Assembly: GCF_001854805.1 (NCBI RefSeq) | Contig: NZ_MBLO01000272.1 | Coordinates: forward strand, 1-52,658 | Reading direction: 5' to 3' | DNA from: Pseudofrankia coriaricola | GTDB lineage: Bacteria; Actinomycetota; Actinomycetes; Frankiales; Frankiaceae | DNA length: 52,658 nucleotides | Shown: piece by piece, positions 11,847-49,713 of the stretch | Layout: each line of letters opens with the position of its first letter | How positions within the stretch are numbered: the stretch's first letter is position 1 | Made by a program: the position numbers and the translations under genes | The notes under the pieces: generated by a model | What the model saw: only the letters and a program-made list of their open reading frames with translations | Database searches by the model: none | What the model was told of the DNA's origin: nothing

Positions 11847-12038
11847 CCTCGCGGTCACACCTCCATTCGTGAGAGCGGCCGCCGCCCGCCAGGCGCCGTG
11901 GGCAGGCGCGGCGGCCCCGGCCGACATCATCGGTCCACCACGCCCGGGGGCCTCCGGAGACGCCTGCCGCGACGCGGGAACGTAACAAGCAGCGCGTTGA
12001 TCCGAAACACGCGAATCTCTACCGTCACCTGCATGTAC

Positions 12039-12060
12039 ACGGGCCTGTATACAGACCCGT
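12039..12060. promoter_or_regulatory. 22-bp near-perfect palindrome, candidate GntR operator
   Basis: The arms are ACGGGCCTGTA and TACAGACCCGT, with one mismatched pair, centred on TGTATACA. The site lies about 130 bp upstream of the leader ORF and gntR, in the spacer after the divergent hydrolase gene. Symmetric sites of this size are usual for FadR/FCD regulators, so autoregulation is the simple reading. Confidence 0.5.
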
Positions 12061-12186
12061 ATTCAGAAACGGAAGGGGGTCACGACATGCCTCGCGCAGC
12101 CCGCCCGCCGCCGCGGCGTGCCGCCCCTCCTTCCCCGCCACGGCCCAGACCGCTCCCAGCAGCCGCCCGCTTCAGGAGGTACGACC

Positions 12187-12294
12187 GTGCCTGTCGCCGC
12201 GCCCGTCGGGAGCCAGGTCCGGCCCGGTCGTCGCCAGCGGCTGGTGGGGGCCTGCGACGCGGCGGTGGTCCATGACGGATGCTCGGCTGCATGA
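12187..12294 (+). CDS. Possible 35-codon leader ORF coupled to gntR
   Basis: GTG 12187 lies six bases behind a perfect AGGAGGT Shine-Dalgarno, the best in the region. The frame runs 35 codons and its TGA shares bases with an in-frame ATG of gntR (ATGA at 12291). The peptide starts M-P-V-A-A-P-V-G-S-Q and has no recognised domain. The gntR start has no ribosome site of its own, so initiation there probably depends on termination of this ORF. It may be a regulatory leader or merely a translation enhancer. Confidence 0.4.
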   Translation: MPVAAPVGSQVRPGRRQRLVGACDAAVVHDGCSAA

Positions 12295-13100
12295 CACCGA
12301 CGCAACCGCCGACAGCGCAGCCGCCAGCAGCACGGCCGCCGGGCGCGCAGGTTTCGGGCGCGCAGCCGCGCGCCGTGCAGCGACGGCCGTCGGCGAAGCC
12401 CGCGGCGGTCGGGAACCTGCGCGAGCACGCCTATGTCGCCCTGCGGCAGCGGCTCATGGAGGGCGAGTTCTCCTTCCGCGACCGGCTGACCGAGGAGCGG
12501 CTCGCCGCGCTGCTCGGGGTCTCGCGAACACCGGTGCGCGAGGCGCTCACCCGGCTGGCGGGAGACGGCCTGGTCGAGAAACGGCCGGACGGGGGCTACT
12601 ACCCGGCGGAGCCGGATCTCACCGGCCTGCGCGACCTCTACGAGATCCGGGTCGTGCTGGAGCTGCGAGGCATGGAACGGGCGCTGGAATCCGGCGTCCC
12701 GCACGAGGCCGCGCTGCTGGAGCCGCTGCGCGACTACTGGCGGGCGCTACGCACCGCGCCTCCCGACCCTGACCCCTCCTTCGTCGCCCTCGACGAGGAA
12801 TTCCATCTAACGCTGTCCCGGGCGTCCGGCAACCTCGAGCTGGCCAACCTGCTCGACGCCATAAACGCCAGGATCCGGCCCGTCCGCATGCACGACTTCC
12901 TCACCGAGGACCGCATCCACCTCACGATCGAGCAGCATCTCGGCATCGTCGAGACGGTGCTCGCCGGCGACCTGACCGACGCGGTGCGCAAGCTGCGCAG
13001 CCACGTCGGCGAGTCGATGGAGGTCGTGGAGAAGCGGGCCGCCCGCGCAATCACCCAGATGGTGCTCCGCCGAGGCCGCTCACCGCGCCAAGGCCCGTGA
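12291..13100 (+). CDS. GntR-family regulator, FadR/FCD subfamily
   Basis: This is a 269-residue DNA-binding regulator. After a Pro/Ala/Gln-rich N-terminus, the winged HTH runs from L-R-E-H-A-Y-V-A-L-R-Q-R-L (about 43) through R-L-T-E-E-R-L-A-A-L-L-G-V-S-R-T-P-V-R-E-A-L to the wing G-G-Y-Y. The C-terminal FCD domain shows D-L-Y-E-I-R-V-V-L-E, then D-E-E-F-H-L-T-L, E-Q-H-L-G-I-V-E and S-H-V-G-E-S, supplying the Asp and His ligands of the metal site. FCD regulators sense small carboxylates or related metabolites. It sits 415 bp before the BMP transporter operon and is its likely regulator. The start at 12291 was chosen for its ATGA overlap with the leader ORF; the upstream ATG 12279 lacks a ribosome site. 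Confidence 0.85.
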   Translation: MTPTQPPTAQPPAARPPGAQVSGAQPRAVQRRPSAKPAAVGNLREHAYVALRQRLMEGEFSFRDRLTEERLAALLGVSRTPVREALTRLAGDGLVEKRPDGGYYPAEPDLTGLRDLYEIRVVLELRGMERALESGVPHEAALLEPLRDYWRALRTAPPDPDPSFVALDEEFHLTLSRASGNLELANLLDAINARIRPVRMHDFLTEDRIHLTIEQHLGIVETVLAGDLTDAVRKLRSHVGESMEVVEKRAARAITQMVLRRGRSPRQGP

Positions 13101-13133
13101 CATCGCCACGCCGCTCGCCGCCGTCGTCGGCCC

Positions 13134-13153
13134 GCGGGAGACAGATCTCCCGC
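13134..13153 (+). terminator. Terminator-like hairpin after gntR
   Basis: Eight-bp perfect stem GCGGGAGA/TCTCCCGC with the 4-nt loop CAGA, 34 bp past the gntR stop. It lacks a T-run. It suggests that gntR and the transporter operon are separate transcription units. Confidence 0.5.
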
Positions 13154-13375
13154 TGACCACGTTCGCCGGTGCCGCGCGCGGCGGGCCCACGCGGCCGGAC
13201 GGCCGGGCGCTGCCGAAGGAAGTGCGACCCGCGGGCTACGCGCAAGGCAATGCCACGTAGTTAGGATCCTCCGCGATCTTCATGCAAACCGTTGACCTGC
13301 GGTGATGACGGTCGATCTTGGCTAACTAAGCAGCATTGCCGCGCGCCTCGCCCAAGGCGCACGCCCTTCCTTCGC

Positions 13376-13400
13376 GTCTTCGAGAACACCTTTCGAAGAC
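13376..13400. promoter_or_regulatory. Inverted repeat upstream of the transporter operon, candidate operator
   Basis: GTCTTCGA, nine bases, then TCGAAGAC: perfect 8-bp arms with operator-like spacing, 115 bp before the ATP-binding gene. A TTGACC hexamer (13292-13297) lies upstream without a clear -10 partner. The rest of 13154-13515 holds no gene. The site could bind the GntR protein or fold in the leader RNA. Confidence 0.4.
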
Positions 13401-13515
13401 ACGGATCCAGCACCGCCCGACAGGCCCAGCGAGGACACCTCTCCGGGCCGAGGAACCGGAAGGCCGCGATGTCAGGATTGTCTGGGTGTTTGCCCGGAGC
13501 CACTGAGGACACGCC

Positions 13516-15168
13516 ATGTCCACGGTGACCGTCGAAGCGACCGGCGGGGCGACCACCACCGCCGAGCCGCTGCTCGCCGTCACCGGATTCACCAAGCGGT
13601 TCGGCGAGGTACTCGCCAATTCGGACGTGAGCCTCGACGTCCGGCCAGGTGAGGTACACGCCCTCATCGGCGAGAACGGCGCCGGAAAGTCCACGCTGCT
13701 CAAGCTCGTCTACGGCATGTACCGGCCGGACTCCGGCGAGATGCGGGTGGCCGGTGAGCGGGTCGCCGTCGGATCGCCGACGCAGGCCCGTGCCCTCGGT
13801 ATCGGCATGGTCTTCCAGGACCTGCGGCTGGTGCCCGCATTCACCGTGACCGAGAACTACGCGCTGGCGCTGGCCAGGGCCGGCCTCACGCTGCGGCAGA
13901 GCGAGCTGCGCAAGCGGATCGCCGAGGCCAGCGAGTCCTACGGGCTGGCCGTCGACCCGACGGCGCTGGTGCGCCACCTGTCGATCGGTGAGCGCCAGCG
14001 CACCGAGATCCTCAAGGTGCTGATGACGGGCGCCCGGATCGTCATCCTCGACGAGCCGACCAGTGTGCTCGCGCCGTCCGAGGTCGACGCGCTGTTCGCG
14101 ATGGTGAACGGTCTGAAGGCGCAGGGCTTCGGCGTCGTGATCGTCACCCACAAACTGGCCGAGGTGCGGGCCATCGCCGACCGGGTGACGGTGCTGCGCG
14201 GCGGGCGGGTCGTGCTGGGGGGCGTGGACCCGAAGCCGATGACCGACGCCGAGCTGGTCGAGGCGATGGTCGGGCAGACGGTGGCACCCCTGCCGGCCCA
14301 GCGGCCGACGGTCGTCTCGGAGGCGCCGCCGGCGCTGGAGCTGGTCGGGGTGAGCGCGGTCGGCGACCGCGGCGTCACCGCGCTGCACGATGTCACCCTC
14401 ACCGTCCAGCCAGGCGAGATCGTCGGCGTGGCCGGCGTGGCTGGCAGCGGGCAGCGGGAGCTGTGCGAGGTCGCCGTCGGCGCCCGCCCGGCGTCGGCCG
14501 GCACCGTCCGGGTGAGCGGCCAGGAGCTCGGCCGCGGCGGCCCGACCGCGGGGATCACCGCCGGTGCCGTCGACGTGCCGGAGGACCCGGTGAACGACGC
14601 CGTCGTCCCGACGCTGACCGTGCTCGAGCACATGGCCCTGGGCAACCTGCGGGCCTTCCTGCGCCGGATCGGCGTGGACTGGCGCCGGATCGGCAGGCAC
14701 ACAACGGAGATCAACGACCGGGTCAGGCTGCGGATGGCGCCGGCGCACCGCCGGGTCGCCGACCTGTCCGGCGGCAACATCCAGCGCGTCATGCTCTCGC
14801 GGGCGCTCGGCCGGGAGGCGAGCCTCGTCGTCGCCGCCTACCCGAGCCGGGGCCTGGACATCGCCACCACCCGGCGCACCCAGGAGCTGCTACTGGGCCG
14901 CCGTGCCGACGGCGCCGGGCTGCTGGTGGTCTCCGAGGACCTCGACGAGCTGATGTCGGTCGCGGACCGGATCGCGGTGTTCTGCGCCGGCCGGCTCACC
15001 GGCGTCGTGTCGGCGGCGGCCACGAACCGCCAGGAGCTCGGCGCCCTGATGACGGGCGCACCGGCCCCGGCCGAGCCGCCGGCGGCGGCCCCGGTGCCAG
15101 CCGAGCAGGTCGCCGTGGCTGGACAGCTGGCGGACGGCCCGATGCCTGAGGGGGGCGAGGGGGCATGA
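13516..15168 (+). CDS. BMP-type ABC importer, duplicated ATP-binding subunit
   Basis: This 550-residue protein has two fused nucleotide-binding domains in the layout of RbsA/YufO (NupA) subunits. Domain 1 (about 20-250) has Walker [11 protein letters not shown]-loop V-F-Q-D-L, the signature replaced by L-S-I-G-E-R-Q-R, Walker B I-V-I-L-D-E-P-T and the switch His T-H-K. Domain 2 (about 275-500) has a degenerate Walker A (G-V-A-G-S-G-Q-R-E), signature L-S-G-G-N-I-Q-R and no classical Walker B acid ([11 protein letters not shown]). This asymmetry is normal for the family. The Pro/Ala-rich tail is disordered. The subunit powers uptake by the two permeases that follow; the stop overlaps the first permease by four bases. 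Confidence 0.92.
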
Positions 15169-16412
15169 GCGACACGACCATTCCGGCTCAGGCCGAAGGA
15201 GGCGCGACAATGGCGGAGCCTCGCGCCGCCGGAGGCCCGCAGATAGTCGCGCAGTTCAAGCCGGAGGACGCGACCGGCGGTGGGGGCGCGGTCGCGACGG
15301 CGACCCTTGCTCCCGAGGTACCGGTCGCCCCGGGGACTCCTGGCGCCTCCGCCGTGCCGGCCGCGCCGGCCGTCGAGAGCCGGCTGACCGGGATCGGACG
15401 CGGGGTCGCCCGGTGGGCCGCCGCGCTCGCCGGCGCGATCGCCATCTTCACCGTGCTCCTGCTGCTCAAGGGCGCGAACCCGGCGAGCGTCTACTCCAAC
15501 GTGTGGACCTCGACGTTCACCAACCAGCCGTCGATCGAACAGATCTTCGTCAAGGCGGCGCCGCTGCTGCTCGGCGCGCTCGCCGTCGTGGTGCCGGCCA
15601 GGGCCGGGCTCGTCAACGTCGGCGGCGAGGGCCAGATCGTGATCGGCGCGGTCGCCGCCGGCGGGATCGGGATCTCGCTCGGCGACAGGCTCGGCGGCGG
15701 GCTGGTCATGATCCTCATGGTCGTCGCGTCGATGGCCGCGGGCGCGGCCTGGGCGGGGCTCGCGGCGGTGCTGCGCCTGACGGTCGGCATCAACGAGGCG
15801 GTCAGCACGCTGCTGATGAACTACATCGCCCTCGACCTGCTGCTCTACCTGATCTACTCGCCGTGGAAGGACCCGCACGGCACCGGGCAGCCGACGACCG
15901 CACCGCTCGCGGACACGGCGAAGCTGCCCTACCTCGGCACCACCGCGGTCCACGTCGGGATCGTGTTCGCACTGATCGCGACCGCGGTCGTCTGGCTGCT
16001 GCTGCGCTACACGACCTGGGGCTTCCGGCTCCGGGTGATCGGCGGCAACCCGGAGGCGGCCCGGCGCGCCGGGCTCCCGGTCGCGCTGCTGCTGCTCTCG
16101 GCGATGCTCGTCGGCGGGGCGCTCGCCGGGCTCGGCGGCATGGTCCACTACGCCGGCGTCGAGTACAAGCTGCGCACCGGCATCACCACCAACTTCGGCT
16201 ACATCGCGTTCCTCGCGAGCTGGCTCGCGCGGCACAACCCGGTGAGCGTCGTGCTCGCGGCGCTCGCGCTCGCGGCCATCACGGTGGCCGGCGACAGCCT
16301 GCAGCTCGACTCGGCGCTGCCGGCGGCCACGGTGAACATCCTGATGGGCCTGGTGCTCATCGCCGTCCTCGGTTGGACGACACGCAAGAAGAGCGGGGGG
16401 AAGGCGCGATGA
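15165..16412 (+). CDS. BMP-type ABC importer, permease subunit 1
   Basis: The 415-residue integral membrane protein belongs to the BPD_transp_2 (RbsC/YufP-NupB) family. A soluble, Ala/Pro/Gly-rich N-terminal extension of about 75 residues is followed by some eight to ten hydrophobic helices, beginning [18 protein letters not shown]. The family motif [10 protein letters not shown] and the coupling segment [15 protein letters not shown] are clear, as is [10 protein letters not shown]. It pairs with the next permease to form the channel. It overlaps both neighbours by four bases, so stoichiometric coupled translation is expected. The long N-terminal extension is unusual, and an alternative ATG at 15210 would shorten it by 15 residues. 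Confidence 0.92.
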
Positions 16413-17326
16413 GCAGCCTGGTGGTCGACGTCCTGGCCGGCGCCGTCGGCGGTGGCACGGCGATCATGTATGCCGGGCTCGGCGAGACCATCTCCGAGCG
16501 GGCGGGCGTGATCAACCTGGGCACCGAGGGGAGCATGCTGGGCGGCGCCCTGGCCGCCTACGCGGCCACCGCGACCTCGGGCAGCCCGTGGGTGGGTGTG
16601 CTCGCCGGTATGGGCGCGGGCGCGGCGCTCGCCGGCGTGCACGCGGTGCTGGTGGTGGCCCGCAAGGCCAACCAGTTCGCGTCGGGCCTGACGGTGATGT
16701 TCTTCGCGCTGGGCCTCACGTCCCTGTTCGGCGCGGCCTACGTCGGGCGGCAGATCCACGCGCTCAACCCGTGGAAGGTGCCGGGCCTGTCGGCCATCCC
16801 CTGGGTCGGCCCGATCCTGTTCGACCACGACCCGCTGACCTACATCTCGTTCGCGGTCGCCCCAATGGTGTGGTGGCTGCTCTACAAGAGCCGGGTCGGC
16901 CTGCTGATCCGCACGGCGGGCGAACACTCCGAGGTGCTGCTCGTCCATGGCTACTCGACGAACACCGTGCGCTATGTGTCGGTCATCGCCGGGGGCGGGC
17001 TGTGCGGGCTCGGCGGGGCGCAGCTGTCGATCGCCTACTCGAACGCCTGGTTTGAGAACATGACGGTCGGCCGCGGCTTCATCGCGGTGGCGCTGGTGAT
17101 CTTCGCGACCTGGAACCCGCTGCGGGTCATGGCCGGCTCGTACCTGTTCGGCGCGGCGCTCGCCCTCTCCCCCGCGCTGCAGGCCCGTGGCTACGGGATC
17201 AACCAGTTCGCCCTGGACGCGATCCCGTTCGTCGTGACGATCCTGGTGCTCGCCGTACTGGGCAAGCGCACTCTGCTCGCCGCGCCCGACGAGCTGCGCC
17301 GCGTCTTCGAGACCCGCGCCGCCTAG
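16409..17326 (+). CDS. BMP-type ABC importer, permease subunit 2
   Basis: The 305-residue membrane protein is the second half of the channel (YufQ/NupC-like). G-E-T-I-S-E-R-A-G-V-I-N-L-G-T-E-G-S near residue 25 is the family hallmark. About eight to nine transmembrane helices follow, with A-N-Q-F-A-S-G-L-T-V-M-F in the coupling region and R-T-A-G-E-H-S-E-V-L-L-V-H-G-Y in the cytoplasmic loop before the last helices. The ATG overlaps the previous stop. After its stop a 215-bp gap contains a short GC palindrome (CGGCCGG/CCGGCCG around 17382-17396), which may attenuate or stabilise the transcript before the binding-protein gene. Confidence 0.92.
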   Translation: MSSLVVDVLAGAVGGGTAIMYAGLGETISERAGVINLGTEGSMLGGALAAYAATATSGSPWVGVLAGMGAGAALAGVHAVLVVARKANQFASGLTVMFFALGLTSLFGAAYVGRQIHALNPWKVPGLSAIPWVGPILFDHDPLTYISFAVAPMVWWLLYKSRVGLLIRTAGEHSEVLLVHGYSTNTVRYVSVIAGGGLCGLGGAQLSIAYSNAWFENMTVGRGFIAVALVIFATWNPLRVMAGSYLFGAALALSPALQARGYGINQFALDAIPFVVTILVLAVLGKRTLLAAPDELRRVFETRAA

Positions 17327-17541
17327 CGCGAGACCCGCGCCGCGCGGCGCCACAAAGCCCCCGCATCGGTTTCTGACCGATCGGCCGGACCGGCCGGGAT
17401 CCTCCCCTGCCCCCTTTGGCCGTCCGGCCATCTCCTCCTGCCCGCGCGCCGCACTGACCCCACGGCGCCATCCCTCCCTGCCCAGAACGACCCGTTCGCG
17501 GGAACCTCGGCTCACTTCCACCGGGAAGGACCTCTTTCACA

Positions 17542-18714
17542 ATGCGATTCCGTTCACGGCGGGTCGTGGTGGCGTTCACCGCCGTCGCCTCCGCGCTCGC
17601 GATCGCGGCCGCCGGCTGCAGCAGCGCGGCGTCCCACGACTCCGCCGCTACCGCCTCCGGCTCCTCGGCGCCGGGCAAGGACAGCAAGGCCGTCGGTTTC
17701 ATCTTCGTCGGCCCGAAGGACGACTACGGCTACAACCAGGCCGCCTACCAGGGCAGCCAGGAAATCAAGAAGGCCTTCCCGGACCTGCAGGTCATCACCG
17801 CGGAGAACGTCCCCGAGGACGACAACGCGGCCCGGGTCATGGAAGGCATGATCCAGAAGGGGGCGAAGATCATCTTCGCCACCAGCTACGGCCACCTGGA
17901 CGCCGCGCTCAAGGTCGCCGCCGCCCACCCGGACGTAGTCGTCGTCCAGCAGGGCAACGTGATCGCCGACGGAAAGGTCACGGCGAACACCGGCACCTAC
18001 TTCGGCACGGTCTACGAGCCGGTCTACCTGGCCGGCATCGCCGCCGGGAAGGCGACGAAGTCCAACAAGCTGGGCTACGTCTACGCGTTCCCGATCCCGC
18101 AGACCATCGCGAACATCGACGCGTTCGAGCTCGGCGCGAAGTCGGTCAACCCGGACGCGAAGACCTACACCGTCAACACCTCCAACTGGTGCGACCCGGC
18201 CAAGCAGGCCCAGGCCACGCAGAGCCTGCTCTCCCAGGGCGTCGACGTCATCAGCCAGCACCAGGACTGCACCGGCACCGTCATCAAGGCGACCGAGGCC
18301 GGCGGGGCATTCACCGTGGGCTACCACGCGGACGCCTCGTCGCTCGCGCCTAAGGGCTGGCTCACCGGCTCCGAATGGGCCTGGGGCCCGCTCTACACCG
18401 ACATCGTGAAGACCGCGCTGGGCGGGACCTTCACCGGTAGCAAGTACAACGCGAACTACCGCGTCGGATACAAGAACGGTGAGAACCCCTTCGTCCAGTC
18501 GAAGTTCGGGCCATCCGTGACCCAGGAGACGAAGGACGCCATCACGAAGGCCAAGACGGACATCTCGGCGGCGGACGGCTCGCCGTTCAAGGGCCCGATC
18601 ACCGACCAGGAGGGCAAGGTGCGCATCCCGGCCGGCACGGTCCCGGACTACGCCACCCTCGACACCATCGACTACTTCGTCGACGGCGTCGTCGGGGAGC
18701 TTCCCAAGTCCTGA
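17542..18714 (+). CDS. BMP-family solute-binding lipoprotein
   Basis: The protein has 390 residues. The signal peptide has Arg-rich n-region M-R-F-R-S-R-R, a hydrophobic core and lipobox A-A-G-C, giving a lipidated Cys26 anchored outside the membrane. The mature protein starts with a Ser/Ala linker and the BMP fold, opening [21 protein letters not shown]; then [30 protein letters not shown], and [10 protein letters not shown]. Known BMP proteins (PnrA, BmpA) bind purine nucleosides, but this subgroup with G-P-K-D-D is linked to other solutes. Its position before biuret and allophanate hydrolase genes suggests a ureide or biuret as ligand; this is inference. A strong hairpin follows the stop. 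Confidence 0.9.
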
Positions 18715-18731
18715 GGACGGCCCGGATCATG

Positions 18732-18775
18732 ACCTGACCGCGGCCAGGGGCGTCGCCGTCCCGCCGCGGTCAGGT
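18732..18775 (+). terminator. Hairpin with 12-bp perfect stem between binding-protein and hydrolase genes
   Basis: ACCTGACCGCGG and CCGCGGTCAGGT flank a 20-nt loop, 18 bp past the lipoprotein stop and 126 bp before the hydrolase start. It could terminate most transcripts or protect the 3' end of the transporter message, letting transporter and enzymes be made in different amounts. Confidence 0.6.
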
Positions 18776-18901
18776 CTACCGCTCCACCCCCGCGACGCCC
18801 CGGGGCGCGGCTTCCGTGCCGCCGGGGCGTCCGGGCCGCCGACGGCCGCCGTCGCCGGCCGTCGACCACGCCAGCAGCTCGGGGAAACCGAAAGGACCAC
18901 G

Positions 18902-19615
18902 ATGACCGCCAACGACGTCACCTTCGCCACCGTTGAGGCGGACCCGTACAACTGGCCGTACAACGGATCGTTCTCCCCGGCCACCACCGCCGTGATCAAC
19001 ATCGACTGGCAGGTCGACTTCTGCGGCAAGGGCGGCTACGTCGACGCCATGGGCTACGACCTGGAGCTCACCAGGGCGGGGCTCGCACCGACGGCGCGAC
19101 TGCTCGAGGTACTGCGGCCGCTCGGGTTCTTCATCGTGCACACCCGCGAGGGCCACCGCCCGGACCTGTCCGACTGCCCGCCGAACAAGCTGTGGCGCTC
19201 GAAGCGGATCGGCGCCGGCATCGGCGACGAGGGCCCGTGCGGGCGGATCCTGACCCGCGGCGAACCAGGCTGGGAGATCGTCCCCGAGGTCGCCCCACTG
19301 CCCGGCGAGGTCGTCATCGACAAGCCGGGCAAGGGCTCGTTCTACGCGACCGACCTGAACCTGGTCCTGCAGCGCGCCGGCATCACCCACATCATCCTGA
19401 CCGGCATCACCACCGATGTGTGCGTCCACACCACGATGCGCGACGCCAACGACCGTGGCTACGAGTGCCTGCTGCTGTCCGACTGCACGGGCGCGACCGA
19501 CCACGGCAACTACGAGGCCGCCCTCAACATGGTCAAGATGCAGGGCGGCGTCTTCGGTTCGGTCGCCACCTCGGACGCGCTGCTCACCGCCGTGGCCGCC
19601 CCGGTCGCCGGCTGA
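18902..19615 (+). CDS. biuH: Cysteine hydrolase, biuret amidohydrolase type (BiuH-like)
   Basis: This 237-residue protein is of the isochorismatase-like hydrolase family. The triad is visible as Asp35 (I-N-I-D-W-Q-V-D-F), Lys141 ([10 protein letters not shown]) and Cys174 (G-I-T-T-D-V-C-V), with the cis-peptide G-I-T-T before the Cys. Long stretches match my memory of rhizobial biuret hydrolase: D-P-Y-x-W-P-Y-N-G, C-G-K-G-G-Y-V-D-x-M-G-Y-D, [22 protein letters not shown] and [14 protein letters not shown]. BiuH cleaves biuret to allophanate and ammonia. The next gene consumes allophanate, which strengthens the call. The close alternative, ureidoacrylate hydrolase RutB, lacks these signature stretches. 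Cytosolic. A GGAAACCGAAAGGACCACG stretch precedes the ATG. Confidence 0.85.
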
Positions 19616-19621
19616 CCGGCG

Positions 19622-21229
19622 ATGGTCAGCGCCTTCCCCGAGCCCGAAGCCCTGGCACATCCTAAAACCCAAACCCAAACCCAAACCCAAACCCAAGCCC
19701 TGACCGGAGCCCCAGCCCCAGCCCCGGCTTCCCCGACCGCGCCGGCGCTCGTGCCGGCGCCGCTCGACCTGCAGGCCGCCGTGCTGCGCGCCGCCTACCT
19801 CTCGGGGCGGCTGCGCGTGGCCGACGTCGTCGACGCGGTGCTGGCGGCGATCGCCGCCCGCGGCGACGATGGCGTCTGGATCCACGTCGCCGACCGCACC
19901 GACCTCCTCGTCAGGGCGGCCGAGCTCGACGCGCGTGCCGCGGCGGTGGCGCCCGGTGACGACCTCCCGCCGCTGTTCGGCCTGCCGTTCGGGGTGAAGG
20001 ACAACATCGACGTCGCCGGGATGCCGACGACGGCCGCCTGCCCGGGCTTCGGCTACCAGGCCACCGTCGGCGCGCCGCTGGTCGACGCGCTGCTCGCCGC
20101 CGGCGCCGTCTGTGTCGGCAAGACCAACCTCGACCAGTTCGCCACCGGCCTGTCCGGGGTCCGCAGCCCCTATGGCATCCCCACCTCGCCGTTCGACCCG
20201 GCGATGATCGCCGGCGGGTCCAGCTCCGGGTCGGCGGTCGCGGTCGCCGCGGGCCTGGTCACGTTCGCCATCGGCACCGACACCGCCGGCTCCGGCCGGG
20301 TGCCGGCCGCGCTGACGAACACCGTCGGCATCAAGCCGTCCCGGGGGCTGGTCAGCTCCAGGGGCGTTGTGCCGGCCTGCCGGTCGCTGGACTGCCCTTC
20401 CGTGGCGGCGCTGTCGATCGCCGACGGCGCGCTCGTGTTGGACGTCATCAGCGGCTTCGACGAGCACGACCCCTGGTCGCGCCAGTTTCCCTCGCCGACA
20501 CCCGGCCGGGTCCCCTGGACGGGCGAGGGAGGCGCGCCCAGTCTCGGGGGGCTGGGCGCGCCGTCCGTCCGGCTGGGGATCCCGGCCGCGGCCATGGTGG
20601 CCGCCGACTGCGACGACGCGGTCCAGGCGGTGTTCGGGCGCGCGCTCGACCTGCTCACCGCCATGGGCGCGGAGCTGGTCGAGATCGACCTCGCCCCGTT
20701 CTTCGAGGCCGGGACCATGCTCTACGGGGGCCCGTGGCTTGCCGAGCGCTACGCCGCGGTCGGCGACTTCCTGGAGGAGCATCCGGACGCCGTGCACCCG
20801 GTCGTCGCCGAGCTGCTCGCGCCCGGCGCCCGGATCAGCGGCGTGGACGTCTTCACCGGTGTCGACCGACTGCGGACGCTGCGCCGCCAGACCGAGGCGA
20901 CGTGGCGGGCGGTCGACGCGCTGGTGCTGCCGACCGTGCCCCGGACGTTCTCCGTCGCGGACATGCTGGCCGACCCGATCCGGCGCAACGCCCGCCTCGG
21001 TCGGTACACGACGTTCGCGAACCTGCTGGACCTCGCCGCCGTCGCGGTCCCGGTCGGCTTCGGCGGCGGTCTGCCCTACGGCGTGAGCGTCATCGGCCCG
21101 GCCGGCTCCGACGCCCAGCTCGCCGCCGTCGGCGCCGCGCTGCACACGAGTTCCGGCCTCGCGCCAGGACGCGGCACCTTCCCGCTGGCCGCGGCACCCG
21201 GGACGGCGGCCACCAGCCTGCCTGCCTGA
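19622..21229 (+). CDS. atzF: Allophanate hydrolase (amidase-signature family)
   Basis: The 535-residue enzyme hydrolyses allophanate (urea-1-carboxylate) to CO2 and ammonia, the last step of biuret breakdown. The Ser-cisSer-Lys triad is present: Lys in G-V-K-D-N-I-D, cis-Ser in A-G-G-S-S-S-G-S, and the nucleophile in T-D-T-A-G-S-G-R-V-P-A. The stretch D-N-I-D-V-A-G-M-P-T-T-A-A-C-P and L-D-Q-F-A-T-G-L-S-G-V-R-S-P-Y-G identify the allophanate branch. It lacks most of the C-terminal domain present in AtzF of about 600 residues, as in shorter homologues. The N-terminus is odd: a Gln/Thr repeat from telomere-like DNA followed by a Pro/Ala linker, before the domain starts near residue 48. The ATG lies seven bases after the biuH stop without a clear ribosome site; a GTG near 19751 is an alternative. 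Confidence 0.88.
   Translation: MVSAFPEPEALAHPKTQTQTQTQTQALTGAPAPAPASPTAPALVPAPLDLQAAVLRAAYLSGRLRVADVVDAVLAAIAARGDDGVWIHVADRTDLLVRAAELDARAAAVAPGDDLPPLFGLPFGVKDNIDVAGMPTTAACPGFGYQATVGAPLVDALLAAGAVCVGKTNLDQFATGLSGVRSPYGIPTSPFDPAMIAGGSSSGSAVAVAAGLVTFAIGTDTAGSGRVPAALTNTVGIKPSRGLVSSRGVVPACRSLDCPSVAALSIADGALVLDVISGFDEHDPWSRQFPSPTPGRVPWTGEGGAPSLGGLGAPSVRLGIPAAAMVAADCDDAVQAVFGRALDLLTAMGAELVEIDLAPFFEAGTMLYGGPWLAERYAAVGDFLEEHPDAVHPVVAELLAPGARISGVDVFTGVDRLRTLRRQTEATWRAVDALVLPTVPRTFSVADMLADPIRRNARLGRYTTFANLLDLAAVAVPVGFGGGLPYGVSVIGPAGSDAQLAAVGAALHTSSGLAPGRGTFPLAAAPGTAATSLPA
19665..19694. repeat. Five tandem AAACCC hexamers in the atzF 5' end
   Basis: A telomere-like hexamer array, perfect over 30 bp, encodes alternating Thr-Gln, and is followed by CAGCCC-type repeats encoding Ala-Pro. 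The low GC of this patch stands out against its surroundings. Hexamer slippage would keep the frame. Confidence 0.9.
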
Positions 21230-21337: not shown

Positions 21338-21724
21338 GTGGCAGCCATGTCGACGAAGCCGCGGGCAGGCGACGGGCCCGACGTGAGCGGCGACGAGGAC
21401 GGGACCCAGGACCCGGTCGCCGAGGCGGTGCCGTCACACGGCCAGCACGGCTACAGTGCGCACCGCGATGACTACCTCGCTCGGCTGCGCCGGATCGAGG
21501 GCCAGGTCCGTGGTCTGCAGCGCATGGTCGACGAGGACAAGTACTGCATCGACATCCTGACGCAGGTCTCCGCCGCCACCCGCGCCCTGCAGTCCGTCGC
21601 GATCGGCCTGTTGGAGGACCACCTCGGCCACTGCGTCGCGGACGCCGTCGCCACCGGCGGCCCGGTCGCCGACGAGAAACTGCGCGAGGCGAGCGCCGCC
21701 ATCGCCCGCCTCGTCCGCTCCTGA
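21338..21724 (+). CDS. csoR: CsoR-family copper-sensing repressor
   Basis: This 128-residue all-helical repressor of the CsoR/RcnR family has the copper ligands in exact register with M. tuberculosis CsoR: Cys70, His95 and Cys99 (spacing 25 and 4), in the contexts D-K-Y-C-I-D-I-L, L-L-E-D-H-L-G-H-C. The DNA-contact helix is R-L-R-R-I-E-G-Q-V-R-G-L-Q-R-M. An N-terminal extension of about 40 polar residues, ending in a His-containing segment, precedes the core. GTG 21338 (AGGGA seven bases upstream) is taken as the start; ATG 21347 is possible. No copA or copZ is in the window, so the wider regulon is elsewhere. It is convergent with the kinase gene; 40 bp separate the stops. Confidence 0.9.
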   Translation: MAAMSTKPRAGDGPDVSGDEDGTQDPVAEAVPSHGQHGYSAHRDDYLARLRRIEGQVRGLQRMVDEDKYCIDILTQVSAATRALQSVAIGLLEDHLGHCVADAVATGGPVADEKLREASAAIARLVRS

Positions 21725-21764: not shown

Positions 21765-24761
21765 CTACGGGCAGGGGGCCTCGTAGGTGCGGCCAGGGGC
21801 GGCGCGCAGCCATTCGGCCTGGGTGAGGCGAGTGCCGACGCGGGCGCAGACCTGCTCCGCGGCGACCGCCGGGTCGAGCTCCCACACCCGCGCCGAGCCG
21901 GCGCCGGCGGCGGCCAGCACCCAGCCGCGGCCGGACGAGCTGAGGGCCAGCGCGCCCGGCGTCCCGTCCACGCGCAGGGTCCCGCCGACCTTCGGGCGCG
22001 TCGGCGACGTCATGTCCCAGACCGAGATCTCACCGTCGGCACCGCCGGTCAGAAGCGTCCGCCCGTCCAGGCTGAAGACCAGTCCGGCGACGCCGGCGGG
22101 GCGGGCGCCGAACGTGGCTACCGGCCGTGGCCGCCGGCCGCCCGAAAGCTGGTAGAGCTGGACCTTGCCGCCGTCCGACGCCGTGGACGCGGCGACGCCG
22201 GCGGAGCGCCGGTCGAGCGGGGTGGTGGCGACGGCGAGCAGGGAGTCATCCGGGCTGAACCGGACCTGACTCGCCTTGGCCCAGACGTAGAACTCGGCGT
22301 ACGGGCGAGGCTGGGCCCGCTCCGGGAGATCCCAGATCCGCAGGAAGCCGACGGCCCCGACCGCGAGGGTCCGGCCGTCCGGCGCGAGCGCGACCGACAG
22401 CGCCGGGCCCGCGACCCTGACGGCGGCGAGCTGGCGGGGGTGGGCGTGGTCGGCGACGTCCCAGAGCCGCACGGCGCCATCCGCCTCGGCGGTGGCCAGC
22501 GTGCGGCCGTCGGCGGAGAAGGCGATGTCGTTGACCGTCGCCGCGGCGCCGCGCAGCGCCGCGAGCTGGACGGGGCGGGCCGGGTCGGTGAGGTCCCACA
22601 GCCTGACCAGCCGGTCGGCCCCGCCGGTGGCCATCACCCGCCGGTTGCCGGCGTCCGCCGGCGCGGCGGTGACCGCCATGACCGCGCCCGTCTTCGCGAG
22701 GAGCGTGGCACCGCGGTGAACCGTGCTCGGGTCGCGCAGGTCCCAGACGCCAACGCCGGTGTCACCCGCCTGCAGGAGGGTGGCGCCGTCCGCGCTGAGC
22801 GCGACGTCATGGACAGCGCCGCCCGCCTGCCCGGTCTCGCGCACCGCGGCGTCGACCAGCACCTTCGCGGCCTGCGGCGTCTCGGAGATCCGGTATGCGG
22901 CCACGGCGAGCTGGCCGGCGAAATCCGGGCGCGCGGGGAGGAGCTGACCCGCCTCGGCCGCCAGCCGCCGCGACGTCGCGGCGTCCCGGGCCGCGTGCGC
23001 CCGGTCAAGGATGGCGATCACGCCGACGACCACCACGGCGACCATGATGGCGCCGGTTAGCACGCTTGCCGGCGTCACCAGCGCCCGCGGCCGGCGGGCG
23101 GCCGCCCGGAGCCAGCGGCTACCGCCCCCGCCCCGCGCTGGCTCGGTGTCCGGCGCCGGCGGCGAGGCCGACTCGTCGTCGGCGCCCTGGGCGGCGGAGG
23201 GCAACGGGACGATGGCGGACTCGCCGGGAGCGTCATCCGATCGCGTCGGCTCGGCGGACGGCTCGCTGTCCCCCGTCAGCTTCGTCCCGCCCTTTGGGGC
23301 GGACGCCGCTGGCGCGGATGCACCGGCGTCCTCGTCGGGCGCCGGTGGGCCGTCCTCGTCAGGCACCTCGTCGTCGGGCACCTCGTCGTCGGGCACCTCG
23401 TCGTCGGGCACCTCGTCGTCGGGCACCTCGTCGTCGGGCACCACCACCGGGGCGTCCGGAACCGTTGCGGCGCCTTCCGGAAGGTCGACCGCGCTCAATG
23501 CCTCGGCCGTCGCCAAAATCGCCGTGACGTCGCTCTCAGCCGTCGCGACGGGCTCGGCTGTCTCCTCGGGCGAGGCTGTCTCCTCGGGCGAGGCTGCCGT
23601 AGCCGTCGCGGACCCGGGCGGCGCGGACGTGGCTGGTGCTGACGTGGCATCGTCCGCCGCCGGCTCGTCCACCGCGGTCGGCTCGTCCACCGCCACCGGC
23701 TCGTCCGCTGGACGGGTGTCGTCGTTCTCCAGCCGCGGCGCGACGTCCTCGAAGAGGTCCTCGAGCCCGGCTGCCGCCGCGAACTGGCCGGCCGTGGCAC
23801 GGGCGAGGGGGGCCGGGGGCGCGGGGACAGGCGCGGTGGCCGGTGTGGGCAGGTTGGCCAGCTCGAGCAGGCGGTCGGCGAGGTCGCGCGCGCTGATCCG
23901 GCGGTCCGGGTTCTTGCGCATCACGTCGGCCAGCAGCGCCGCGAGCGGCGCCGGCACGCCCGCGAGGTCGGGCTCGGTGTAGACGACCCGTTGCAACAGC
24001 GCGCGCGGCGCGCCCTCGCCGAACGGCGGCCGGCCGGTGGCCGCGTAGATGATCAGCGCACCACAGGCGAACACGTCGGCGGCGGCTGTCAGCGAATGGC
24101 CCAGGGCCAGCTCCGGTGCCATGAACGCGGGCGCGCCGAAGGTCGCCATCGCCGGGCCGCGGCGCGTCCCCTTGCCGAGGCGGCCGGCGGCCCGGGCGAC
24201 GCCGAAGTCGATGAACCGGGGCCCGCCGGCGGCGAGCACGACCCGCGCCGGCTTGAGGTCGCCTAGCACCAGGTCCTGGTGATGCAGCTCGGCGAGCCCG
24301 GTGGCCATCGCCGCTCCCAGCCGCCCGACCGCGGCCGCGGACAACGGGCCGCCGGAGGCGACCATCGCGCCGAGGGTCGGAGCGTCGAGGAACTCCGTCA
24401 CGACGTACGGCGTCGGCCCGTCCACGTCGACGCCCAGGACCTCGGCCAGGCAGGCCGGCGCGGTGTCTCGCGCACGCAGCGCCTCGACGCGCAGCTGCCC
24501 CAGGAACGCCCGGTCACAGGCCAGGTCGGGAGCGATGATCTTCACGGCCGAGCGGCTTCCGTCGCCCGCGCGGCACAGGTGCACCACCCCGGTGCCGCTG
24601 GTCACGAGGACCCGCTCCACGAAGTACGGACCAATCCGCGTCGGGTGTTCCGCGCGGCCGCCGCGGCTCCGGCGCGCGGGTGTCGGGCGCTCACCGGCCA
24701 CGCACAGACCTCCAGGAAACGCCGACCAGCCAGGGGACGACGCGGTCTCGCCGAACGACAT
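21765..24761 (-). CDS. Membrane Ser/Thr protein kinase-like protein with WD40 domain
   Basis: The protein has 998 residues. The kinase-like domain (about 43-300) has a loose glycine loop (T-S-G-T-G-V-V), Lys74 in S-A-V-K-I-I, Glu93, catalytic-loop Asp168 in L-G-D-L-K-P, D185-F-G and A-P-E-L. HRD is replaced by L-G-D, and the Asn five residues after the Asp is Arg (R173), so Mg binding may be impaired and the domain could be weakly active or a pseudokinase. A disordered acidic linker follows (five D-D-E-V-P repeats, about 443-467), then one membrane helix (about 563-585) and a C-terminal WD40 propeller (about 645-990) with repeated W-D-L/W-D-V ends and G-R-T-L turns. The kinase faces the cytosol and the propeller probably lies outside. 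The start has no strong ribosome site and may lie further inside. Confidence 0.85.
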   Translation of the reverse strand: MSFGETASSPGWSAFPGGLCVAGERPTPARRSRGGRAEHPTRIGPYFVERVLVTSGTGVVHLCRAGDGSRSAVKIIAPDLACDRAFLGQLRVEALRARDTAPACLAEVLGVDVDGPTPYVVTEFLDAPTLGAMVASGGPLSAAAVGRLGAAMATGLAELHHQDLVLGDLKPARVVLAAGGPRFIDFGVARAAGRLGKGTRRGPAMATFGAPAFMAPELALGHSLTAAADVFACGALIIYAATGRPPFGEGAPRALLQRVVYTEPDLAGVPAPLAALLADVMRKNPDRRISARDLADRLLELANLPTPATAPVPAPPAPLARATAGQFAAAAGLEDLFEDVAPRLENDDTRPADEPVAVDEPTAVDEPAADDATSAPATSAPPGSATATAASPEETASPEETAEPVATAESDVTAILATAEALSAVDLPEGAATVPDAPVVVPDDEVPDDEVPDDEVPDDEVPDDEVPDEDGPPAPDEDAGASAPAASAPKGGTKLTGDSEPSAEPTRSDDAPGESAIVPLPSAAQGADDESASPPAPDTEPARGGGGSRWLRAAARRPRALVTPASVLTGAIMVAVVVVGVIAILDRAHAARDAATSRRLAAEAGQLLPARPDFAGQLAVAAYRISETPQAAKVLVDAAVRETGQAGGAVHDVALSADGATLLQAGDTGVGVWDLRDPSTVHRGATLLAKTGAVMAVTAAPADAGNRRVMATGGADRLVRLWDLTDPARPVQLAALRGAAATVNDIAFSADGRTLATAEADGAVRLWDVADHAHPRQLAAVRVAGPALSVALAPDGRTLAVGAVGFLRIWDLPERAQPRPYAEFYVWAKASQVRFSPDDSLLAVATTPLDRRSAGVAASTASDGGKVQLYQLSGGRRPRPVATFGARPAGVAGLVFSLDGRTLLTGGADGEISVWDMTSPTRPKVGGTLRVDGTPGALALSSSGRGWVLAAAGAGSARVWELDPAVAAEQVCARVGTRLTQAEWLRAAPGRTYEAPCP
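23361..23441. repeat. 15-bp tandem repeat in the kinase linker
   Basis: About five copies of CTCGTCGTCGGGCAC, encoding D-D-E-V-P on the minus strand. In-frame period; likely length-polymorphic. It forms part of the acidic linker between the kinase and membrane segments. Confidence 0.9.
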
Positions 24762-49512: not shown

Positions 49513-49702
49513 CCTCCCCCTCTGTCATGGGCCTGAGAGCTTCACCGGGCGACGTCATGCCCGGCTTGCACCGTCGGCGGGATGCCCAGCGGCGTCCGCT
49601 TTCCAGAGTTGCCTGACCCGGCGGTTGGGGGCCTGAGAGTTTGTAGGGAGATCTTGCTCCTTCGGCGCCACGGGCCGGCTTGCCCGGGACTCTCCCGCAC
49701 GG
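49513..49702 (-). promoter_or_regulatory. Tandem glycine riboswitch upstream of gcvP
   Basis: Read on the minus strand, two aptamers are visible. Aptamer 1 starts GCGGGAGAGT, has the core GCGCCGAAGGAGCAAG (49652-49667) and closes with CTCTCAGG (49631-49638). The linker contains CTCTGGAAAGCGG. Aptamer 2 has the core CGCCGACGGTGCAAGCC (49563-49579) and closes CTCTCAGG (49532-49539), followed by ACAGAGGGGGAGG. These are the conserved elements of actinobacterial glycine riboswitches, which turn on glycine cleavage when glycine is abundant. About 230 nt separate it from the gcvP start; the expression platform is not obvious. Confidence 0.93.
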
Positions 49703-49713
49703 GTGTGAGCGGC

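Follow-up and report, generated by a model that had tools for sequence, protein, structure and literature searches.

Contig NZ_MBLO01000272.1 of Pseudofrankia coriaricola (RefSeq assembly GCF_001854805.1; 11.2 Mb in 280 contigs, this one being C272), whose 52,658 nucleotides we call the window, carries an operon in which an ATP-binding cassette (ABC) importer of the BMP family is coupled to a biuret hydrolase (BiuH) and an allophanate hydrolase (AtzF). We consider it likely that this is a ureide-scavenging system, which would import a small neutral ureide, most probably biuret, and degrade it to ammonia. The operon spans 12034-21229 on a single strand and comprises a probable operator, a GntR-FCD regulator, an ATPase, two permeases, a BMP lipoprotein, BiuH and AtzF (Table 1). 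Genes were called from open reading frames and from Pfam and NCBIfam profile searches, and coordinates are window positions. The importer has the parts that define the BMP family, namely a PF02608 lipoprotein, two BPD_transp_2 permeases and a two-domain ATPase. The functions proposed for the enzymes rest on strong homology, and the predicted operon structure and operator on comparative evidence. Every gene named in the original prediction, a note made from the sequence alone, was found in its place on the same strand; the extent given there holds for the genes, but it missed that its start, 12039, falls inside a conserved palindrome (12034-12065).

The hydrolase encoded after the importer is, by strong homology, BiuH. 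It scores 412.5 bits with the NF050097 equivalog (cut-off 370) and is 70% identical over 221 residues to the crystallised BiuH of Rhizobium leguminosarum, in which Asp36, Lys142 and Cys175 are catalytic and Phe41, Lys145 and Gln215 contact biuret (PMC5806882, cited, like the other PMC articles here, from parts of the text). The triad is exact in the window protein (D35/K141/C174), and F40, K144 and Q214 are also present in the alignment. In a FastTree phylogeny of 142 isochorismatase-like proteins, nearly all from fetched loci, the window protein falls in an 83-tip clade with the crystallised enzyme (support 0.914), and a separate 31-tip TrtA clade (support 0.997) holds a TrtA-like protein of R. 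leguminosarum and a second hydrolase from the P. coriaricola genome. Comparison with RutB and nicotinamidases rests instead on profile scores; both identities were ruled out, the RutB profile giving 97 bits against a cut-off of 378. The original prediction had called a biuret hydrolase here and proposed a check by phylogeny; with the triad exact and the equivalog cut-off passed, the protein scores and groups as BiuH, not as RutB or a nicotinamidase.

The last gene was originally predicted to encode an allophanate hydrolase. That identity holds, by a narrow margin, with TIGR02713 (515.7 bits, cut-off 511.05), but the prediction missed that only the amidase domain is present. The match covers profile positions 2-416 of 563 in a protein of 535 amino acids, which over this domain is 46% identical to AtzF of Pseudomonas sp. 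ADP; no counterpart of the C-terminal domain of the latter was found in window AtzF. No match to the AtzF C-terminus was obtained in 9 of 51 rows (the window and, with L numbers denoting fetched loci, L004, L005, L069, L181, L185, L186, L187 and L189), where L185 repeats L004 and L187 repeats L005. Apart from L069, these come from the same genus (L004/L185, L005/L187, L181 and L186) or family (L189). The C-terminus was matched in the other 42, in L017 only to residue 543, where its contig ends. A frameshift hiding the domain is unsupported, because AtzF of four congeners (genomes G293, G333, G379 and G423) is also without it; in addition, the stretch past the stop codon reads as a separate small gene. 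AtzF of G423 appears as two pieces. Three further congeners (G283, G313 and G520) have no AtzF after BiuH and one long copy each elsewhere (frames of 575-619 amino acids, 652-653 bits with neighbours), and in the window's own genome no other AtzF passes the cut-off. In AtzF the C-terminal domain contributes to decarboxylation of the product or to enzyme assembly, and the amidase domain retains activity on its own; we therefore infer that window AtzF is a working but minimal enzyme. A stand-alone protein resembling the AtzF C-terminal domain is encoded elsewhere in the genome (L213:3310-3951, in G000:C135), near a gene for an importer-type substrate-binding protein.

The nearest solved relative of the lipoprotein is AtzT of Pseudomonas ADP (6pi5, 202 bits), not PnrA, followed by Brucella 3s99 (184 bits) and, with 23 to 77 bits, by 11 further listed chains. 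A structure search with an AlphaFold2 model (35-sequence alignment, pLDDT 89.4, pTM 0.84) likewise returned AtzT and 3s99 first, then guanosine- and nucleoside-bound proteins, and the nearest NCBIfam BMP model remains far under its cut-off (81.5 of 400). AtzT binds guanine at 110 nM in a site made up of Tyr45, Ser97, the Phe98 backbone, Glu165, Trp194, Asn218 and Asn220, in which Glu165 hydrogen-bonds guanine and Tyr45 and Trp194 sandwich its ring (PMC6834077). These positions and Asn169 (eight in all) were located by alignment in 62 distinct BMPs whose genes lie no more than 8 kb from BiuH, with 20 unlinked AtzT-like BMPs of at least 180 bits for comparison; among the unlinked, L108-L116 were each seen over about 4 kb and come from genomes without BiuH at 70% identity, and plasmid controls were seen over the plasmid stretch only.

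At AtzT positions 45, 97, 165, 194, 218 and 220 the window lipoprotein has Tyr, Ser, Gln, Trp, His and Asp, and thus departs from the purine-binding set, in which Glu165, Asn218 and Asn220 stand in place of Gln, His and Asp. Ser97, Asn169, Trp194, His218 and Asp220 are invariant in all 62 BiuH-linked BMPs, and position 165 is Gln in 59; in the 20 unlinked proteins it is Glu (14), Asp (2), Thr (2) or Gln (2). Of the two unlinked Gln165 proteins, one is L107 and the other L197, where contig ends intervene between the BMP gene and BiuH (the latter 105 bases short of the end of C27). In the BMP tree the linked proteins form, with L107, L197 and L210, a single 65-tip clade (support 0.952) next to the AtzT/Glu165 proteins, with members that by record titles come from Actinomycetota, Pseudomonadota and Cyanobacteria. 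The window lipoprotein lies in this clade, has Gln165 and adjoins BiuH, the features by which we define BiuH-linked BMPs here. Being neutral, Gln at this position would pair more readily with the imide or amide edge of a compound such as biuret than with guanine's amidine edge. The distinct BMP subgroup of the original prediction is supported by tree and pocket, both of which also favour the putative ureide-like ligand proposed with it. The BMP of L107 (also L179; G055:C278:7330-8421) is encoded beside a large frame that reads as a sensor kinase, instead of BiuH, and may be part of a ureide sensor.

Gene order was compared in the nearest 80 of at least 590 BiuH loci found, a sample biased to close relatives. 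A BMP importer gene lies beside BiuH in 46 of the 80: in 31 the order is that of the window (ATPase, permeases, BMP, BiuH, within the limits of each contig; type A), and in 15, found in Pseudomonadota and Cyanobacteria, it is BMP, permeases, BiuH and then the ATPase gene (type P). The fetched stretch of the remaining 34 holds no importer, with less than 4.5 kb upstream in eight of them. The order GntR-ATPase-permeases-BMP-BiuH is kept in seven of the eight genus members, of which G423 has it spread over two contigs; in the remaining one, G333, the contig boundary leaves BMP-BiuH-AtzF visible. In a class sample of 345 genomes, with BMP counted at 60% identity or more and BiuH at 69% or more, the BMP was found in 14 of the 33 BiuH-bearing genomes and, as BiuH accompanied it every time, in 14 overall, among them all eight genus members; the two genes lie within 1 kb on the same strand in 13 and are split at contig ends in the 14th. 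In a phylum sample of 198 genomes, BiuH (at 70% or more) was found in five, with the BMP adjacent in two. A formamidase gene stands next to importer and BiuH in 8 of the 15 type-P loci (for example L103, L040, L043 and L050) and in R. leguminosarum 3841, which suggests a broader role in amide-nitrogen scavenging there. On the Citrobacter plasmid pK218-KPC (L206, NZ_OL988823.1), genes for a BMP importer, two isochorismatase-family hydrolases, formamidase, atzF and GntR are bordered by IS elements on both sides.

The palindrome, about 226 bp 5′ of the GntR start, is probably the operator of the operon. Its core, TGTATACA, has a single exact copy in the window (0.02 expected). Exact copies were counted within 320 bp ahead of the GntR or ATPase match, among type-A loci whose sequence reaches at least 4.5 kb 5′ of BiuH; 16 of 27 have one near the start of either gene, the L016 copy sitting 9 bp inside the GntR/ATPase match, and 11 have none. 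One-mismatch copies, present in seven of these 11, were not counted as evidence. The core precedes GntR in all seven genus members with that region present (the window, L181-L185 and L197). In L033, L034 and L036 the site stays before the ATPase gene although the GntR gene is found after BiuH, which argues that the operator serves the operon. It also precedes GntR in importer-less loci of the Frankia family (L006, L008, L017, L188, L189, L190, L198 and L199), and the 80 loci together hold 32 copies, some of them not near GntR or ATPase genes. The upstream pattern of FCD-type regulators, TNGTN(2-5)ACNA, had no match in ten stretches scanned; the palindrome came from alignment instead.

How might the parts work together? 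The GntR-FCD regulator would bind the palindrome and release it when the imported compound or its product is present. The importer, relying on its lipoprotein, would take up a small, neutral, planar ureide, most likely biuret, as linkage, phylogeny and pocket suggest. BiuH would then convert biuret to allophanate and ammonia, and the AtzF amidase domain would deamidate allophanate. Since the AtzF C-terminal domain is missing, the resulting N-carboxy product would lose its CO2 unaided, for a predicted net yield of three ammonia and two CO2 per biuret.

Several observations weigh against import of biuret as a dedicated function. Three linked BMPs are without Gln165 (L050 has Thr, L056 Ser and L079 Ile), and the L107 protein has it yet is unlinked to BiuH. 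All linked BMPs share a single clade, so Gln165 may reflect common descent instead of ligand. Among solved structures the nearest, AtzT, binds guanine with the affinity given above, and the window protein retains the guanine-sandwiching pair Tyr45 and Trp194, so that a ring would fit this pocket too. Relatives keep the genes together, as the original prediction expected, though 19 of the 33 BiuH-bearing genomes of the class sample are without this BMP, including all 13 same-family genomes outside the genus, as are three of the five in the phylum sample; BiuH therefore does not need it. Finally, an AtzF without its C-terminal domain may be impaired.

One alternative is that the importer carries triuret (or carboxybiuret) instead of biuret, and that a TrtA-like enzyme encoded elsewhere feeds BiuH and AtzF of the operon. 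The genome does encode such a hydrolase (G000:C271:60214-60858; L092:9688-10803), 51% identical to window BiuH and placed in the TrtA clade, so triuret could become biuret in the same cell and feed in. A TrtA gene also lies in the fetched locus of 12 of the 15 type-P loci. However, it lies in the fetched stretch of only one of the 31 type-A loci (L060), and the P. coriaricola gene stands outside the operon and has its own neighbour, a 560-amino-acid permease-like gene of NCS2-like type by sequence reading. We do not favor triuret as the ligand, but take it seriously. With this gene elsewhere in the genome, and with AtzF of three congeners outside the operon, the original view of a self-contained module with biuret as the entry compound is less well supported.

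If the importer were instead a purine or nucleobase importer of the AtzT kind, its linkage to BiuH and AtzF would reflect joint regulation of nitrogen scavenging or the use of purine breakdown products. The nearest solved structures (AtzT with guanine, Brucella 3s99 with adenine modelled) and the kept Tyr45 and Trp194 fit this idea, as does the label of nucleoside transporter given to the same importer type in nitrifiers (PMC12625717). The replacement of Glu165 by Gln in 59 of 62 linked proteins, which form their own clade, speaks against it, and we think it unlikely. Least probable, in our judgment improbable, is import of an s-triazine such as cyanuric acid, the role suggested for AtzT. In its favour, 2-hydroxyatrazine and ammeline are ligands of AtzT (PMC6834077), and AtzD is encoded in the importer cluster of R. 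leguminosarum 3841 and in 2 of the 15 type-P loci, but in none of the 31 type-A loci. A genome-wide search for the cyanuric acid hydrolases AtzD and TrzD gave no matches, with both positive controls detected, which extends to the whole genome what the original prediction had said about this enzyme; the operon is not a cyanuric acid degradation operon as defined by AtzD/TrzD. Import of biuret remains the reading that we prefer.

The pairing of a BMP importer with BiuH and AtzF is itself already published for other bacteria, and the window is a further, actinobacterial example. In nitrifiers, bmpA-nupABC occurs with biuH, trtA, trtB and atzF (PMC12625717). Those clusters resemble the window in having the same importer class by biuH and, in bacterial nitrifiers, by atzF, with gntR in a figure legend, but they are described for triuret, and the window operon is without trtA; the parts of that article consulted contain no BMP tree, pocket analysis or operator. 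The AtzRSTUVW and atzDGEHF genes of pADP-1 from Pseudomonas sp. ADP likewise place an AtzT-type BMP importer next to AtzF (there also next to cyanuric acid enzymes; PMC6834077), but with a LysR regulator, and with AtzD, AtzEG and AtzH in place of BiuH. The description of this locus as under-described in the original prediction is therefore less well supported.

The pRL10 cluster of R. leguminosarum (johnstonii) 3841 brings together a BMP, two permeases, an ATPase, GntR and the crystallised BiuH, to which its BiuH is identical over the chain stretch compared. Its BMP falls within the BiuH-linked clade and agrees with the window protein at seven of the eight pocket positions (Phe at 98, where the window has Tyr). 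The cluster differs from the window in its gene order, in having GntR on the opposite strand and in also encoding formamidase, AtzD and a TrtA-like hydrolase; no AtzF appears in the region displayed. The main text of the BiuH structure paper (PMC5806882) never uses the word transporter. The triuret pathway of Herbaspirillum (TrtA-BiuH-AtzF) shares the BiuH and AtzF steps and adds that of TrtA (PMC7948467); the main text consulted has the word once, in the reference list. The literature searched yielded no account of the BMP clade, of the change to Gln165 or of the operator; the BiuH surveys (Robinson et al., 2018; Aukema et al., 2020) may contain parts of this.

Outside the window, a second isochorismatase-like gene lies between BMP and BiuH in 27 of the 31 type-A loci (for example L013:9421-9972, L016:9731-10306, L026:8621-9307 and L025:9293-10696) and in none of the 15 type-P loci; 32 of the 34 importer-less loci are without it, and the two that carry one, L031 and L035, are cut upstream by contig ends. 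Its product appears catalytically dead. Among 29 sequences (L031 and L035 cut short, L028 poorly aligned), none has the full triad, Lys142, Lys145 or Gln215, one has Asp36 and four have Cys175, and 28 share Ser at 215 and Ile at 218. Dead paralogues form their own 26-tip clade in the hydrolase tree (support 0.999), and this placement and the alignment rule out that the gene is TrtA. The paralogue is under constraint, since its ratio of nonsynonymous to synonymous substitution rates is 0.26 to 0.52 in all nine pairs (0.05 to 0.30 for BiuH). In two metagenome bins named DBS1-3 it is fused in one frame to BiuH (L025, 467 amino acids; L031, 343 amino acids with the start cut off). We read it as a putative pseudoenzyme partner of BiuH. 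In the window, 187 bp separate BMP and BiuH and hold no such gene. We found no description of it in the open-licence literature searched, judged by titles and abstract openings, and its presence beside BiuH in most actinobacterial importer loci is a possibly newer side finding.

Taken together, these data lead us to a broader proposal, which we put forward tentatively as slightly short of evenly balanced: that BiuH-linked BMPs are dedicated receptors for acyclic ureides (biuret, triuret), which arose from purine receptors through replacement of Glu by Gln at AtzT position 165 and spread across at least three phyla; that in most actinobacterial members BiuH also works with the dead paralogue, encoded between the BMP and BiuH genes and in two metagenome-assembled loci joined to BiuH, which would serve as a structural or regulatory subunit; and that the window's genus lost the paralogue or never had it. 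Of these elements, the pocket change across the clade and the dead paralogue deserve further study. Should the ligand be biuret, a Gln165 BMP next to BiuH would be a gene-level marker for active biuret uptake, the label of nucleoside transporter on such genes would be corrected, and the clade would illustrate the conversion of a purine receptor fold to ureide binding. Since biuret is an impurity of urea fertiliser (PMC7700744), and triuret both such an impurity and a product of urate oxidation (PMC7948467), the system is relevant to how soil and plant-associated bacteria scavenge nitrogen.

Table 1. Features of the operon in window coordinates
Feature	Position	Strand	Basis and remarks
Probable operator	12034..12065	.	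Overlapping palindrome, core TGTATACA at 12046-12053
GntR-family regulator with FCD domain	12279..13100	+	Pfam GntR and FCD
ABC importer ATPase, two nucleotide-binding domains	13516..15168	+	Pfam ABC_tran, two stretches; kept in BiuH-linked importer loci
Importer permease A	15165..16412	+	Pfam BPD_transp_2; 4-bp overlap with ATPase gene
Importer permease B	16409..17326	+	Pfam BPD_transp_2; 4-bp overlap with permease A gene
BMP-family substrate-binding lipoprotein, AtzT-like	17542..18714	+	Pfam Bmp; nearest structure AtzT 6pi5; pocket; tree; lipobox AAGC (read from sequence)
Inverted repeat between BMP and BiuH genes	18731..18776	+	14-nt perfect arms
Biuret hydrolase BiuH	18902..19615	+	NF050097 equivalog, active-site residues, tree
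Allophanate hydrolase AtzF, amidase domain only	19622..21229	+	TIGR02713 above cut-off, profile 2-416 of 563

The inverted repeat between the BMP and BiuH genes has no T-run 3′ of it and is possibly an mRNA-stabilising hairpin. No Rfam riboswitch match at gathering score lies near the operon; two tandem glycine riboswitch aptamers lie elsewhere in the window (49515-49707, minus strand). Among the named genomes listed, the BiuH of Pseudofrankia asymbiotica is nearest to that of the window (96% identity, L004). The small gene 3′ of the operon (21347-21724, plus strand) has, from its sequence, the look of a CsoR-type repressor, and at 21765-24761 on the minus strand lies a gene for a Ser/Thr kinase of 998 amino acids with C-terminal WD40 repeats and an acidic, repeat-rich linker.

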